Both the position numbers and the translations under genes were made by a program. From the NCBI GenBank assembly GCA_030427425.1, contig JAUICQ010000011.1, forward strand, positions 1 through 47,990: 47,990 nucleotides of DNA. The letters are read 5' to 3'. Of the stretch, positions 13,023-47,990 are shown one piece after another (within the stretch, counting starts at the first letter, position 1; each line of letters opens with the position of its first letter). Below the pieces are notes generated by a model. It was not told the origin of the DNA, did not search any database, and saw only the letters and a program-made list of their open reading frames with translations. Origin of the DNA: Fimbriimonadia bacterium. Its GTDB lineage: Bacteria > Armatimonadota > Fimbriimonadia > Fimbriimonadales > Fimbriimonadaceae.

Positions 13023-14282
13023 ATGAAATTTAATTATTCAACACATTTTAAGAACTGTGTACAGAGCGTTAAAGAAGAAGGTCGTTATAGATATTTTGCA
13101 CAACTAGAGCGTATAGTGGGTAGTTTTCCTAATGCTATATATACATCTCCGGAAGGAAAACGTAAGAACGTAAAAATTTGGTGTGGTAACGATTATTTAG
13201 GTATGGGGCAGCATCCCAAAGTTTTAGCTGCAGCACAGGATGCCATTGAAAAGTGTGGTGCTGGCGCTGGAGGTACAAGGAATATCTCTGGAACGACCAC
13301 CTATCATGTAGAGCTAGAAGAGTGTGTGGCAGATTTACATAACAAAGAGGCCGGACTGGTCTTTTCGTCTGGTTATGTGGCCAACGAAGGTACCTTAAGT
13401 ACACTAGGTAAATTGATGCCAGGATGTGTCATATTCTCTGATGAATTGAATCACGCTTCAATGGTACACGGGATACGATCTAGCAAGTGTCAGAAGTTTA
13501 TATTTAAACATAATAATCTGGATCATCTAGAATATCTTTTAAAACAAGTGGATATTAATCTTCCTAAGATTATAGCTTTTGAATCTGTGTACTCCATGGA
13601 GGGTGATATCGCTCCTATAGAAGAGATTGCAGATTTGGCAGAGAAGTACAATGCTTTAACTTATATAGATGAGGTTCATGCTGTAGGTATCTATGGTAAT
13701 CGTGGTGGTGGTGTTGTTGATGAACGTGGCCTCATGGATAGGATAGATATCATAGAAGGAACATTTGGTAAATGTTATGGATCTATGGGTGGCTTCATTA
13801 CAGGGGATGCAGCAGTATTAGATGCTATACGATGTTATGCTTCCGGCTTTATTTTTACTACTAGTTTGCCACCTGCAACATTAGCGGCATCCAGAGCGGC
13901 GGTGGATCATCTTAAAGAATCTCAAGAGGAGAGAAGAGTTTTACATGAGAATGTTGCACTCTTGAAAGGTTTACTACGTAAATCGGGATTAAAGTTCTAT
14001 GATGGTGATACCCATATTATTCCGCTTATAGTTGGTGAGCCAACCTGTTGTAGGGAAGTAACGAACATTCTGTTGGATGAGTATAATATTTACGTGCAAC
14101 CGATTAACTATCCTACGGTTCCACGCGGTACAGAGCGTTTACGTTTAACTGCGTCATGCGTCCATACTAAAGAGGATATTCATTATCTGGCAGAAGTACT
14201 AGAACATTTGTGGATACATAATCATGTGTTTAATGAAGTGAAAAACATTGAGGATATTGAAAAACTGAAGGTGTGCGTTTAA
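13023..14282 (+). CDS. hemA: 5-aminolevulinate synthase (Shemin pathway)
   Basis: This 419-aa PLP enzyme condenses glycine with succinyl-CoA to give 5-aminolevulinate, the first step of heme synthesis in Alphaproteobacteria and mitochondria. It matches alphaproteobacterial ALAS almost motif for motif. These include [57 protein letters not shown], the cofactor Asp in [10 protein letters not shown] (about 213-222), the catalytic Lys250 in [12 protein letters not shown], and [18 protein letters not shown] near the C-terminus. Close relatives (KBL, BioF) lack several of these. Most Bacillota-like bacteria use the glutamyl-tRNA C5 route instead, so acquisition by transfer is likely. It stands alone, with no other heme gene nearby. 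Confidence 0.95.
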
Positions 14283-27757: not shown

Positions 27758-29512
27758 ATGTTGAAAGAAAAGAAGTTTATAATTGCTTCTGCTTTACTAG
27801 TTTTAGTAGGAATAGTATTATTTAGTGTTTATAGATATAGAAATGCGAATCTTGGCCACAAGACGGTTGGGTTGTGTGTTGAGAGTGATGTTCTTCGCAA
27901 CTTGATGTTCCAGTCTAAAGTATCGCCAGGGAAGAATCTTGCTAAGTTAAAAGAGTCTGGTATTAATGGGGTGGTTTTATCGGAATGGACGCTTCATGAT
28001 TTAGTAGAGAATAGATACGCTGTGGTGAATTATCTTGGTGAGAGTGAGGGATATCTATTCCAGTTTTTTATGGATGAATTTTCTGTTAACAATTTTTTTG
28101 AAGTATTACAAGTAAAATTTGGCAGTGTTGTTGAGAGAAAATCGGGAAATAGTATTCAGATAAAAGGGATTCCGTATGCGGACATAAAGAGAATCGGACT
28201 AGGATTTAATAAGAATGAGATAGACGATTATAAGCGAGAATCGTTATTGGTAGTGGGTAGAGTATTAAATGAGTCTACTGCAAATGAAGAATCTATTACA
28301 AAAACCGTACATTTAATGAAATATGCAGGTGTAGATTATTATCTCCCCGAAGGTGAGGTGGTGTTAGGTGATAAGAATAGTTTATTGCATGTAGCAGACT
28401 TGTTGGATGATAATGGAATTGGTTATTTATGTCCCGAATTTACTAAAATTTCTGGCGATAAGGAATTATTGAGGGAGATGCTTGAAAAAGGCAACAATCG
28501 TAATGTAGCTAAAATTCATAGTGTATTACCTTTAGAGATGAGTAGACTATCTTATTCCGCTGCAATTGAGAGGTATGTTAAAAGTGTAAAAGAGAGGGGA
28601 GTAAGAATGCTTTTAATCCGACCATTCTCTATGTCTAATGTGGATAGTACAGAAGCGTTTTCTGGCTTTGTTACAAAAATTAAAAATAGATTAGATCTGT
28701 TTGGTTATAAAGTAGGTGTTCCTTCCTCTTTATGCGATAAGAATGTGGGAATGTTGGGTGGCGTCTTTACAACCTGGTTATCGAGTATTGTTTGCTTATT
28801 GATTTTTTCTATACTACTTTATATTGCTATGTATAGTATTAGTAGTACCTATGCGAATGTATTATCTGTTGGTGTAATGGTTATGCTATTCTCTATTGTA
28901 TGGGGAATGTTCCACTATTTACTCCATCATACTTCCGATTATGTTTATGGTGTTAAGTTGATATCCGGAGTGAAATTGGCTCATATTGTTCCACTTGGAT
29001 TTGTATTTATTGCGCTAGTAGATAAGTTTAAGCTGTGGACGTATTTTAAAAATAATCCTGTTTATCCTAGTCAGTTAGTGGGAGCGTTTTTATTTATAGG
29101 ATTGTTAGGTTATATGTTATTGCGATCTGGTAATGAAGGGGTGAATACGGTAAGTGGCATGGAGTTGTATCTGAGAAACTTTATCGATAGTACCTTTGGG
29201 ATTAGGCCCCGCATTAAGGAGATCTTTTTTGGATATCCTGTGCTTTTTGCCGGATTCTGGCTGTTTGTGCAGTCGGATAAAATAAAGAGATTAAATTGGT
29301 TGAAGCTACCTGCATCGATATTAATAACGCTAGGGAGTATTGTTTTTGTAAGTATTTATAACACCTTTTCACATATCCATACTCCTCTAGAAGTAAGTGT
29401 GCTAAGAAGTATTCTTGGAGTAATATTTGGTGGTATAGTAGGGTTAGGTTTAGTAGGGATATTAAAGCTGATATTTCCTGCGTTAGTTAGAGCTAGTAGA
29501 GTGACAGAATGA
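27758..29512 (+). CDS. DUF5693-type multi-spanning membrane protein
   Basis: This 584-aa protein has an N-terminal membrane anchor (about residues 5-23). An extracytoplasmic region of about 300 residues follows (KLKESGINGVVLSEWTL, YYLPEGEVVLGDKN, GVRMLLIRPFS). A C-terminal block of about eight membrane helices includes GIRPRIKEIFFGYP, which I remember as typical of DUF5693 proteins. These are usually encoded directly before csaB in Bacillota, Cyanobacteria and related diderms, suggesting a shared role in cell-wall polymer modification. Here too its stop overlaps csaB by 4 bases (ATGA). Confidence 0.82.
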   Translation: MLKEKKFIIASALLVLVGIVLFSVYRYRNANLGHKTVGLCVESDVLRNLMFQSKVSPGKNLAKLKESGINGVVLSEWTLHDLVENRYAVVNYLGESEGYLFQFFMDEFSVNNFFEVLQVKFGSVVERKSGNSIQIKGIPYADIKRIGLGFNKNEIDDYKRESLLVVGRVLNESTANEESITKTVHLMKYAGVDYYLPEGEVVLGDKNSLLHVADLLDDNGIGYLCPEFTKISGDKELLREMLEKGNNRNVAKIHSVLPLEMSRLSYSAAIERYVKSVKERGVRMLLIRPFSMSNVDSTEAFSGFVTKIKNRLDLFGYKVGVPSSLCDKNVGMLGGVFTTWLSSIVCLLIFSILLYIAMYSISSTYANVLSVGVMVMLFSIVWGMFHYLLHHTSDYVYGVKLISGVKLAHIVPLGFVFIALVDKFKLWTYFKNNPVYPSQLVGAFLFIGLLGYMLLRSGNEGVNTVSGMELYLRNFIDSTFGIRPRIKEIFFGYPVLFAGFWLFVQSDKIKRLNWLKLPASILITLGSIVFVSIYNTFSHIHTPLEVSVLRSILGVIFGGIVGLGLVGILKLIFPALVRASRVTE

Positions 29513-45141: not shown

Positions 45142-45189
45142 AAAAAAAAAAAACAGGTAAAACATTATAATTGCCTGTTTTTTTTTTTT
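45142..45189 (+). terminator. A12/T12 hairpin terminator between the fusion gene and the repeat lipoprotein
   Basis: Twelve A plus CAGG (45142-45157) pair with CCTG plus twelve T (45174-45189) around a 16-base loop. On the plus strand this is a textbook intrinsic terminator for the preceding gene. Its T tract ends only 24 bases before the next start codon, so it also lies in the promoter or leader zone of the lipoprotein. A diverged copy of the right-hand part precedes the second paralog at 47560-47595. Confidence 0.85.
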
Positions 45190-45213
45190 AAAAATCCAAA
45201 TATTAGTATTGTG

Positions 45214-47226
45214 ATGAAGAGTTACGCATTTAAATTTGGAATAATAGTAGGAACAATTGGTATCATAGGTTGTGATCCTAACAAGACAGAAATTAATTTC
45301 AGTGGTTCGAAGAGCAGTGCTAATACAAGTTCTGCATTACAGAAGAGTAGTGGTAGTGGTGCTACAGCTCTCGGGGTTAGGTCGGCAGGTGATGTTGTAG
45401 GTGAATCTACCGAAACTGGTGTAGCTAAATCTACCGAAACTGCTGCCGTTGAATCTAAGGATAAAGTTGTAGCTAAATCTGCCGAAAATGGTGGGCTTGA
45501 CTCAGCCATAATTGATGAGGTTAAAAAGCTATATCCAGAAGAGGCAAAACGCTTGATAAGTGATATTGCAGATTCTACACGAGATTTAAACGAGGCTGTA
45601 GGAAAGATGAAGGCGTTGTATGATCTTTCAAAAAAGAATGCTGAAGGACTCACTACTTATATTAACGAATATAAGAACGGTGCTAAGTTGTATGAAAGGA
45701 TGAAGAATCTAAGCTTGAAACTACCTAAAGATATGCAAATTACTGTGGATGTATATTATTACAAGAATGGCATAGATGGTGAAAAGGACTGGTTGCCTGG
45801 GAAAGAAATAGTTTACAATACAGACAACGATAGATTTTTAATAAAAGGTGCAAGAAAGTATGATGATGGTAGTGATAAACCTATCATGTATTCTTTAGGA
45901 AATTTTGATATCTATCCTAATAATGACAAAGAAGATGTGTATAATTTTAGGAACATAAAAGTAGTTAAAGAAGATCTTACTACTTATATTAACAAATATA
46001 AGAACGGTGCTAAGTTGTATGAAAGGATGAAGAATCTAAGCTTGGAACTACCTAAAGATATGACCTTTACTGTGGATGTATATTATTACAAGAATGGTAA
46101 AGATGGTGAAATGGACTGGCTGACTGGGAATGAATTCAAGTACTATAAAGGCATCGATAGATTTATAATGAAAGGTGCAGGGAAGGATCCTGATAATAGC
46201 TATAAGCCTATACGGTATAATGCAAAAGAATTTGATACCTATCCTAATAATAATGGCAAAACGAAGTATAATTTCAGGAACATAAAAGTAGTTAAAAAGG
46301 AATCATCAGATAGTAATGTCTTCAAATTCAAATTTTCATATAGGAATCCCAAAACTAATGGTATTGAGACCAATAACAATTTTGAATTTGAGCTAACTCC
46401 TACTCTTCTTTGTAAGCTTAAAAGAAACAACATTATCTCAATGGTAGATCCTTTGTATATAAAGTATGGAAGTCCAGAATTTTATTTGTATCCGAACCGT
46501 CAATATACATATTCTCCTTCCGAATTTCAGGAACTGGTGGATGTCCATGGAAGTACACTATCAGTAGAAATTTCTAAAGAGGATATGTTATTTTTTAAAG
46601 ATGATAAGCATGTAACAACTATAAATTGTCTAAAAACTGTGACAAGTGAAGATTGGGATCGAGCTCAGGAATATCGTAAAAAGATTGGAAAAGATCCATT
46701 TGACAAATTGGTTATTGAACATAATAATAAGTTATTTGAAAAATTGCGTCAAAGTATGACAATTGACGAATTGCATAGTAGTATGCTGGAGAAAAAAGCG
46801 AGTATAAAAGCATACAAAATTCCTGACGATAAAGATTATACAGAGAAAGGATTGGATAAAATGACTCCTTATGAATTGGTAGCTATAGATGAAGGTGATA
46901 AGAAATTTAAACTAGAGGATGAGTATTTTACTTATGATGATATTAAAAAGCATATGAAATCATTCGAATATGTTTATATGGTTAACCCTTATCTCTTTAA
47001 TTATGTATGGCAAATTCAAACCAGTCTGGACAGGGGAATGTATGAAACGTATTATAATGTAGAAGCGTTATATGAAGCTATCGAAAACAATACTGAAGTA
47101 AAATTTATACTGAGTTCCTATAATCAACCGATAACAGTAAAAGAGGGTGATTTTTATGATGGAGAAGAGAAGATAGGTAGTAAATATGATATTCATGAAA
47201 GGTGGCTGATAATGGCTCTTAGATAA
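45214..47226 (+). CDS. Repeat-containing lipoprotein (paralog 1)
   Basis: This is a 670-aa predicted lipoprotein. The signal peptide MKSYAFKFGIIVGTIGIIGC ends in a lipobox with Cys20, followed by Asp at +2. A Ser/Ala/Thr/Glu-rich low-complexity region (about 25-95) and a helical stretch (about 96-145) follow. Two 109-residue repeats (about 146-254 and 255-363) come next; each begins LTTYIN and includes AKLYERMKNLSL, TVDVYYYKNG and a final FRNIKVVK. The C-terminal 300 residues are charged and of unknown fold. No Shine-Dalgarno sequence is visible. The GTG three bases upstream could also serve as start. Not similar to any family I know. Confidence 0.8.
   Translation: MKSYAFKFGIIVGTIGIIGCDPNKTEINFSGSKSSANTSSALQKSSGSGATALGVRSAGDVVGESTETGVAKSTETAAVESKDKVVAKSAENGGLDSAIIDEVKKLYPEEAKRLISDIADSTRDLNEAVGKMKALYDLSKKNAEGLTTYINEYKNGAKLYERMKNLSLKLPKDMQITVDVYYYKNGIDGEKDWLPGKEIVYNTDNDRFLIKGARKYDDGSDKPIMYSLGNFDIYPNNDKEDVYNFRNIKVVKEDLTTYINKYKNGAKLYERMKNLSLELPKDMTFTVDVYYYKNGKDGEMDWLTGNEFKYYKGIDRFIMKGAGKDPDNSYKPIRYNAKEFDTYPNNNGKTKYNFRNIKVVKKESSDSNVFKFKFSYRNPKTNGIETNNNFEFELTPTLLCKLKRNNIISMVDPLYIKYGSPEFYLYPNRQYTYSPSEFQELVDVHGSTLSVEISKEDMLFFKDDKHVTTINCLKTVTSEDWDRAQEYRKKIGKDPFDKLVIEHNNKLFEKLRQSMTIDELHSSMLEKKASIKAYKIPDDKDYTEKGLDKMTPYELVAIDEGDKKFKLEDEYFTYDDIKKHMKSFEYVYMVNPYLFNYVWQIQTSLDRGMYETYYNVEALYEAIENNTEVKFILSSYNQPITVKEGDFYDGEEKIGSKYDIHERWLIMALR
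45649..46302 (+). repeat. Two tandem 327-bp repeats inside the lipoprotein gene
   Basis: Unit 1 (45649-45975) and unit 2 (45976-46302) have a period of exactly 327 bases (109 codons) and stretches of near identity, such as AAGAACGGTGCTAAGTTGTA. A third, more diverged unit starts near 47863 in the second paralog and is cut by the window end. Period and identity indicate tandem duplication of a domain. Confidence 0.9.
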
Positions 47227-47239
47227 TAATGAATCATGA

Positions 47240-47285
47240 TTCCAGGACCAGGCCATATTAAGTCTGGACCTGGAACTTTTTTTTT
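47240..47285 (+). terminator. Intrinsic terminator after the repeat lipoprotein
   Basis: TTCCAGG-A-CCAG pairs with CTGG-A-CCTGGAA (one A-A mismatch) around a 12-base loop, followed directly by C and nine T. It lies 13 bases beyond the stop codon. Confidence 0.88.
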
Positions 47286-47320
47286 CCGAGGTGACGGTAA
47301 TACAAGGAGTGATATGAGAT

Positions 47321-47364
47321 TGGGGCTCCCAACATTTGACTATTAATCACCAAGTGCGGGTTGA
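47321..47364. repeat. Direct repeat, copy 1 (CTCCCAACATTTGACTATTA type)
   Basis: The unit contains CATTTGACTATTAATC, then ACCAAGTGCGGGTTGA. A second copy lies at 47414-47459 in the same orientation, about 94 bases on, with only a few differences. The outer bases CCCAACA and TGCGGG are roughly inverted, as are CCCACA and TGTGGG in copy 2, so each unit could form a weak hairpin. Confidence 0.75.
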
Positions 47365-47378
47365 AAATAATATTCGTA

Positions 47379-47409
47379 ATAGACTGGATTCCGATTCTGG
47401 AATGACAAA
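47379..47409. repeat. Dispersed inverted-repeat element, copy 2 (reverse orientation)
   Basis: Reads ATAGACTGGATTCCGATTCT then GGAATGACAAA, the reverse complement of the element at 46-72 with a few changes in the centre. Similarity continues into the flank (ACAAACCAGATGGG versus the reverse complement of CCCATCTCTGATTTGT at 32-47). Confidence 0.65.
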
Positions 47410-47413
47410 CCAG

Positions 47414-47459
47414 ATGGGTCTCCCACATTTGACTATTAATCTACCAGGTGTGGGCTGAC
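47414..47459. repeat. Direct repeat, copy 2
   Basis: Contains CTCCCACATTTGACTATTAA then TCTACCAGGTGTGGGCTGA and matches the unit at 47321-47364 closely. CCCACA and TGTGGG at its ends are perfectly inverted. Confidence 0.75.
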
Positions 47460-47502
47460 AGATTAGATGTGGGGCTAAAACTATTACTCTTCTCCTCCCT
47501 CG

Positions 47503-47530
47503 GTCATCATTCTCGAAGGGAATCCATATC
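47503..47530. repeat. Dispersed inverted-repeat element, degenerate copy 3
   Basis: GTCATCATTCTCGAAGGGAA followed by TCCAT keeps the outer GTCAT...ATTC...GAATCCA pattern of the element at 46-72, in the same orientation as that copy. Similarity is limited, so this is less certain than the other two. Confidence 0.4.
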
Positions 47531-47621
47531 CCTATTATTTGCCTTTGCAGGAGAGTTATCATAAAAACGTAACAATTGCGTGTTTTTTTTTTTTTCTGTT
47601 ATTCCAAATATAAATATTATA

Positions 47622-47990
47622 ATGAAGAGTTACGCATTTAAATTTGGAATAGTAGTAGGAACAATTGGTATCATAGGTTGTGAGCCTAACAAGACAGAAA
47701 TTAATTTCAGTGGTTCGAAGAGCAGTGCTAATACAAGTTCTGCATTACAGAAGAGTAGTGGTAGTGGTGCTACAGCTCTCGGGGTAAAAGCGGCAGGTGA
47801 TCTTGTAGGTACAGAATTAAGCTCATCAGACATAAAAGATTTAATTTCAGCTAAGGACACTAAAAAGCTTACTGATTACATTAACGAAGATAAAAGTGGT
47901 TCTGCTTTGTATGAAAAGATGAAGGAGTTATGCTTAGATTCAGAATTTGCTAGTAATATGACCTTTACTGTGGATGTGTATTATTACAAG
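47622..47990 (+). CDS. Repeat-containing lipoprotein (paralog 2), cut by window end
   Basis: An open frame of 123 codons runs off the right edge. The signal peptide and first 55 residues are nearly identical to the upstream paralog. Over 164 bases from the ATG I count two base differences, one changing Ile to Val and one changing Asp to Glu right after the lipid-modified Cys20. After residue 55 it diverges. It has a shorter acidic or helical part and then reaches the same repeat domain (LTDYINEDKSGSALYEKMKE, TVDVYYYK) 60 residues earlier. A T13 tract ends 26 bases before the start. No Shine-Dalgarno sequence is evident. Confidence 0.8.
   Translation, partial: MKSYAFKFGIVVGTIGIIGCEPNKTEINFSGSKSSANTSSALQKSSGSGATALGVKAAGDLVGTELSSSDIKDLISAKDTKKLTDYINEDKSGSALYEKMKELCLDSEFASNMTFTVDVYYYK

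Follow-up and report, generated by a model that had tools for sequence, protein, structure and literature searches.

Two lipoprotein genes that begin almost identically and then part company raise two questions: (i) what kind of family do they belong to and (ii) by what means do its members vary? The genes, A and B, lie at the right end of the window, by which we mean the whole 47,990-base stretch analyzed. It is a complete contig (G000:C2) of a 1.507 Mb genome (G000) assembled into 19 contigs and 97.65% complete; sites elsewhere in this source genome are given by contig number, and G001 denotes a genome of the same genus. In answer to the first question, A and B are members of a family of about twenty lipoprotein genes, putatively surface-exposed, in which a common copied start cassette precedes different bodies. 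In answer to the second, a homopolymeric T tract ahead of most members is probably the main mechanism of variation.

The gene pair

The features of the locus are summarized in Table 1. The lipobox of gene A can be read directly, and its signal peptide (MKSYAFKFGIIVGTIGIIGC, then D) is that of a normal lipoprotein. Gene B remains open for 123 codons and then meets the contig end. Aligned without gaps from the ATG, the two coding sequences have mismatches at positions 31 and 63 and next at 165, 167, 168, 169 and onward. A preliminary description of this DNA had reported two differences in the first 164 coding bases and an abrupt divergence thereafter, and both observations hold: past about position 165, the alignment requires gaps of 59 and 130 nt and identity falls to 68–84%. 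The degenerate repeats of gene A are missing from gene B, where they correspond to an alignment gap. The C-terminal part of gene A is common to family members on C14 and C1.

The strong stem-loop that follows gene A is its probable terminator. Parts of the repetitive DNA between the two genes recur at 71 places in the genome, many of them adjoining family genes, and matches to its palindromic elements are clustered next to members of the family on C4, C7, C10, C13 and C14.

Table 1. Coordinates of features at the gene A–gene B locus (window positions)
Feature	Position	Strand	Description or evidence
A12 run	45142..45153	-	19-bp perfect hairpin with T12 of gene A, -17.3 kcal/mol
Leader and signal-peptide cassette, gene A	45173..45291	+	R1 match, E 1.1e-25
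T12 homopolymer, gene A leader	45178..45189	+	24 nt before ATG
Gene A	45214..47226	+	ORF; 670-aa lipoprotein with two 109-aa repeats and a divergent C-terminal part
Degenerate 24-nt (8-aa) repeats, gene A	45393..45488	+	Between signal peptide and helical linker
109-aa repeat unit 1, gene A	45649..45975	+	DNA repeat, protein comparison, profile search
109-aa repeat unit 2, gene A	45976..46302	+	DNA repeat, protein comparison, profile search
Strong stem-loop and T9 after gene A	47240..47285	+	-19.7 kcal/mol
Repetitive intergenic DNA, palindromic elements	47288..47580	.	Genome match search
Leader and signal-peptide cassette, gene B	47577..47699	+	R1 match, E 2.9e-27
T13 homopolymer, gene B leader	47583..47595	+	26 nt before ATG
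Gene B	47622..47990	+	Paralogue of A; contig end cuts first repeat unit
Partial repeat unit, gene B	47868..47990	+	E 3.5e-13; first ~41 of 110 model positions

A common start cassette

Genes A and B each also carry a copy of a common leader. A sequence-only model of the leader and signal-peptide region (R1), built from 11 leaders, finds at least 12 strong copies in the source genome (E 1.6e-18 or better) along with several weaker matches; G001 gave none (best E 0.07). In the main members the cassette comprises, in order, the motif TTGC(C/G)(T/G)G, a run of 12–15 T, a stretch of about 25 nt and an ATG from which a lipoprotein signal peptide is read. It also heads short lipoproteins with unrelated bodies at C7:152k, C7:153k, C19:70k, C19:115k and C19:242k. 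The preliminary description had suggested that further members may follow past the right edge; the window ends with the contig there, and many members lie on other contigs.

In pairwise profiles, identity is near 95–100% from about position -50 to +150 and then drops sharply in several pairs. An abrupt junction is evident in C2A/C2B (genes A and B), C4/C3, C4/C7_153 and C8_3/C8_5; in C4/C3, identity of about 95% extends over 950 nt before falling to 65–75%. At least seven contig ends lie inside or beside family members (C1 start, C2 end, C3 start, C6 end, C7 end, C10 start and C14 end), and the repeats of the family have thus broken the assembly and left several members incomplete.

A constant cassette, steep drops in identity and a variable number of repeats together make up a mosaic, which in this single strain suggests recombination within the family. 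The earlier reading of the locus as a recombination-driven surface-protein family is sustained to this extent, but it had overlooked the T tract.

Three other loci deserve mention. In the cassette copy at G000:C7:160461, Tyr replaces the lipobox Cys (GFVSGYG), and judged by this substitution the encoded protein may not be lipidated. A lipoprotein with 11-aa repeats (VSSAVGDVKSG) extends from G000:C12:15353 to the contig end, where the contig stops inside it. Two adjacent short lipoprotein ORFs at G000:C7:108386-108691, whose N-termini are nearly the same and which have a T-rich stretch with interruptions, are a second, small constant-N-terminus pair.

The 109-residue repeat

The two repeat units of gene A are spaced at 327 nt and share 83% DNA identity over 282 nt and 69% protein identity; with the partial unit in gene B, they confirm that A and B have a 109-residue repeat in common. 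Searching the source genome with an alignment of 17 units as query recovered 21 units, located in gene A, gene B, C3, C4, C10, C13 (four units), C8 (five successive genes), C14 and C1. Compared between paralogues, copy number ranges from 1 to 4 per gene in about 11–13 genes, a count that can be given only as a range because some units sit in contig-end fragments that probably come from the same genes. The claim that repeat number differs between members therefore stands genome-wide, but it could not have been made from the A/B pair alone, as gene B is cut within its first unit.

The distribution of the repeat is narrow. The 17-unit alignment found no units in 40 related genomes including G001, the full lipoprotein had no match in 60 related genomes including G001, and the lipoprotein family had none in the plasmids, phages or GTDB contigs searched.

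The domain had gone unrecognized in the preliminary description, and profile searches likewise gave no match to a well-described domain. No convincing database match was found for the repeat, nor any match to a lipoprotein family in Pfam or NCBIfam. DUF5700 scores 28.6 bits on the whole of gene A (cut-off 25), but the match spans a unit boundary and not one single unit matches; DUF5680 matches three of the 17 units (best E 1.1e-5, in one unit) and is a lead only. In a profile search of the PDB, the top hit was a beta-lactamase at E 0.02, which we judged to be chance. AlphaFold2 gave no usable fold (pLDDT 55 for the repeat unit and 38 for full gene A), and Foldseek searches of the PDB with the low-confidence repeat model returned nothing below E 0.1. 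The 109-aa repeat domain appears to be undescribed. dN/dS values for the bodies of family members are mostly about 0.5–0.9, with 1.4–2.3 for C10/C4 on few changes, and provide no significant evidence for diversifying selection.

Long T tracts are confined to the family

Runs of at least 12 T/A number 13 in the source genome, and all belong to the lipoprotein family. Twelve lie 17–26 nt upstream of a family ATG (C2 twice, C3, C4, C6, C7 twice, C8 twice, C13 and C19 twice); the remaining one is the A12 that pairs with the gene A tract. Shorter runs are scarce, with only two of exactly 11 and eight of exactly 10 genome-wide. An order-5 Markov model predicts 3.9 runs of 12+ and 1.3 of 13+, and overshoots the observed 10- and 11-mers. 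The stronger argument is not the number of runs but their placement, since all fall within about 1–2 kb of leaders in a 1.5 Mb genome. Upstream of other lipobox genes, in the stretches examined, T runs do not exceed T6. A T12 run is absent from G001 and from eight of nine other relatives tested, the single match elsewhere being at a contig end.

Within the family, pure tracts of T12–T15 are present in 12 of about 19 cassette copies, and the rest have T9 or an interrupted tract. In the C8 cluster, for example, two paralogues have a pure T13 and three have an interrupted 13-nt T-rich stretch. Tract length varies where the surrounding sequence does not: five leaders whose flanks match exactly (19 nt before and 37 nt after) carry T13, T14, T15, T12 and T13, and the leader of gene B differs from that at the C6 end by T13 versus T14 while being otherwise identical to it over the last ~185 nt. 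These differences are between paralogues of one assembly.

Could such leaders be static? The tract might be an ordinary promoter or translation-enhancing element copied by duplication, with lengths that reflect drift or assembly error and no switching at all. Duplication would carry the tract along with the cassette, every copy was read from one assembly whose contigs break in the family at several ends, and MutS is present and intact in the source genome. Intact MutS rules out a general loss of mismatch repair and, along with the T9 and interrupted tracts of some members, counts against switching. We nevertheless consider a static family unlikely. Four tract lengths in five copies are to be set against zero changes in 56 flanking bases, and the occurrence of interrupted tracts in the same cassette family indicates that purity is not merely inherited. 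As for assembly error, the repeat-associated contig breaks suggest short reads, which would usually be correct over 13-base homopolymers.

Recombination and termination as alternatives

A second possibility is antigenic variation by recombination only, in which a constant cassette swaps bodies, as in the vsa system of M. pulmonis, and the T run is incidental. There, too, a constant 5' end is found on different bodies, and the products are lipoproteins with repeats (PMC10502178). The four abrupt identity junctions described above are what such a process would leave, and flanking repeats are plentiful near family genes. However, vsa-like systems are expected to have a single expression site, with silent partners brought into use by DNA rearrangement, whereas in the present family nearly all members have a leader of their own, complete in at least 12 of them. 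Nor would such a mechanism explain why the long T runs are found exclusively where they are, and we regard recombination as the sole mechanism as quite improbable.

Least probable of all is that the tract belongs, as its tail, to an intrinsic terminator or attenuator controlling read-through into the gene. The hairpin formed by the T12 and A12 of gene A fits this idea, but the folding energies of the remaining leaders, 0 to -3.7 kcal/mol, do not improve on those of shuffled sequences, the C8 members have a separate upstream terminator (-25.9 kcal/mol) and true terminator tails in this genome are shorter (e.g. T9–T10). With strong hairpins before the tract unconserved, the run is not simply a terminator tail. 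The A12/T12 hairpin occurs in the gene A leader and in no other, and the gene A copy may be under different control or may combine a terminator with a switch.

A proposed model for switching by slippage

The explanation that we favor, and consider likely, is that the genes form a dispersed lipoprotein family under simple-sequence contingency control, to which reassortment of the cassette is added. Slipped-strand mispairing would lengthen or shorten a T run by a base or so and change the distance between elements around the promoter or start region; the single gene concerned would thereby be turned up or down. Since each gene would switch independently, cells of one population could display different combinations of lipoproteins; their location at the cell surface is predicted from the lipoprotein signal. 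Such variety may play a part in encounters with a host or with phages. In the longer term, the cassette may be copied onto different bodies and 109-aa units gained, lost or exchanged, processes that the sequence identity of the cassettes and the flanking repeats would aid.

A search of the + strand near the tract yielded no good sigma-70 promoter; several TANNNT-like candidates follow the tract, and they do so in all leaders. A Shine–Dalgarno sequence is seen in few leaders, and in only nine of 28 genes in the window generally. A GTG immediately preceding the T run was considered as an alternative start codon, one that would place the tract inside the reading frame, and was rejected: only a T13 tract keeps it in frame, and the A and C19 leaders lack it.

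Relation to known switching systems

Slippage in a tract of such length and position is an established switch for surface genes, as in vlp (PMC10502178) and sabA (PMC2715451). The finding added here is that the long homopolymeric tracts are, genome-wide, exclusive to one family. The Vlp system of M. hyorhinis and sabA of H. pylori would be the closest in working, by analogy and not by sequence membership.

The Vlp system comprises several lipoprotein genes; every one of them has a conserved 5' region and a signal peptide of its own, and their bodies bear repeats and vary in size (PMC10502178). A homopolymeric A tract is present in all vlp promoters (PMC10502178), compared with a pure T tract in 12 of about 19 cassettes here. 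The two systems differ in that the tract on the vlp coding strand is A and here is T, and in that M. hyorhinis is a mollicute, whereas the source genome has flagellar genes and does not belong to a mollicute. They differ in layout as well: Vlp proteins have short coding repeats and their genes form one cluster, but the repeats described here are 109-aa domains and the loci are scattered over many contigs. Pfam and NCBIfam profiles gave no match of the present proteins to a lipoprotein family; the likeness is one of organization.

The promoter region of sabA contains a poly-T of 13–19, similar in length to the 12–15 here, that varies by slippage in clones of single strains (PMC2715451). It differs in being a single outer-membrane adhesin gene that also has a coding CT repeat, as against about twenty lipoproteins with no coding simple repeat at the start.

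Genome setting and implications

A methyltransferase gene adjoins a family locus, and its orthologue in G001 (45% identity) has as its neighbor a fliD-like gene on the opposite strand, not a lipoprotein gene. Relatives of G000 in the same taxonomic family mostly have genomes of 2–4.5 Mb, by which measure the genomes of G000 and G001 are reduced. From genome size one might guess at a host-associated life style. Some marker proteins of the genome may resemble those of Armatimonadota, and no report of a symbiont was found in the literature on that phylum.

The window also contains a 5-aminolevulinate synthase gene at 13023-14282 (TIGR01821, 603 bits), and the same genome encodes a CsaB-type pyruvyl transferase at window position 29509. 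Synthases of the TIGR01821 type are known chiefly from Alphaproteobacteria.

There is about an even chance, in our estimate, that the family is an independently arisen, Vlp-like combinatorial coat switch in a genome-reduced lineage outside the mollicutes, built on a lineage-specific 109-aa domain, with pure T tracts that were derived from T-rich spacers and then passed to unrelated lipoprotein bodies. As a comparative signal, the tie between every long homopolymer of a genome and a single gene family is unusually clean. If switching does take place, a strategy of surface variation associated with mycoplasmas and mucosal pathogens is also used by an uncultured lineage whose genome is reduced, which would suggest that a host or phage exerts the selection.
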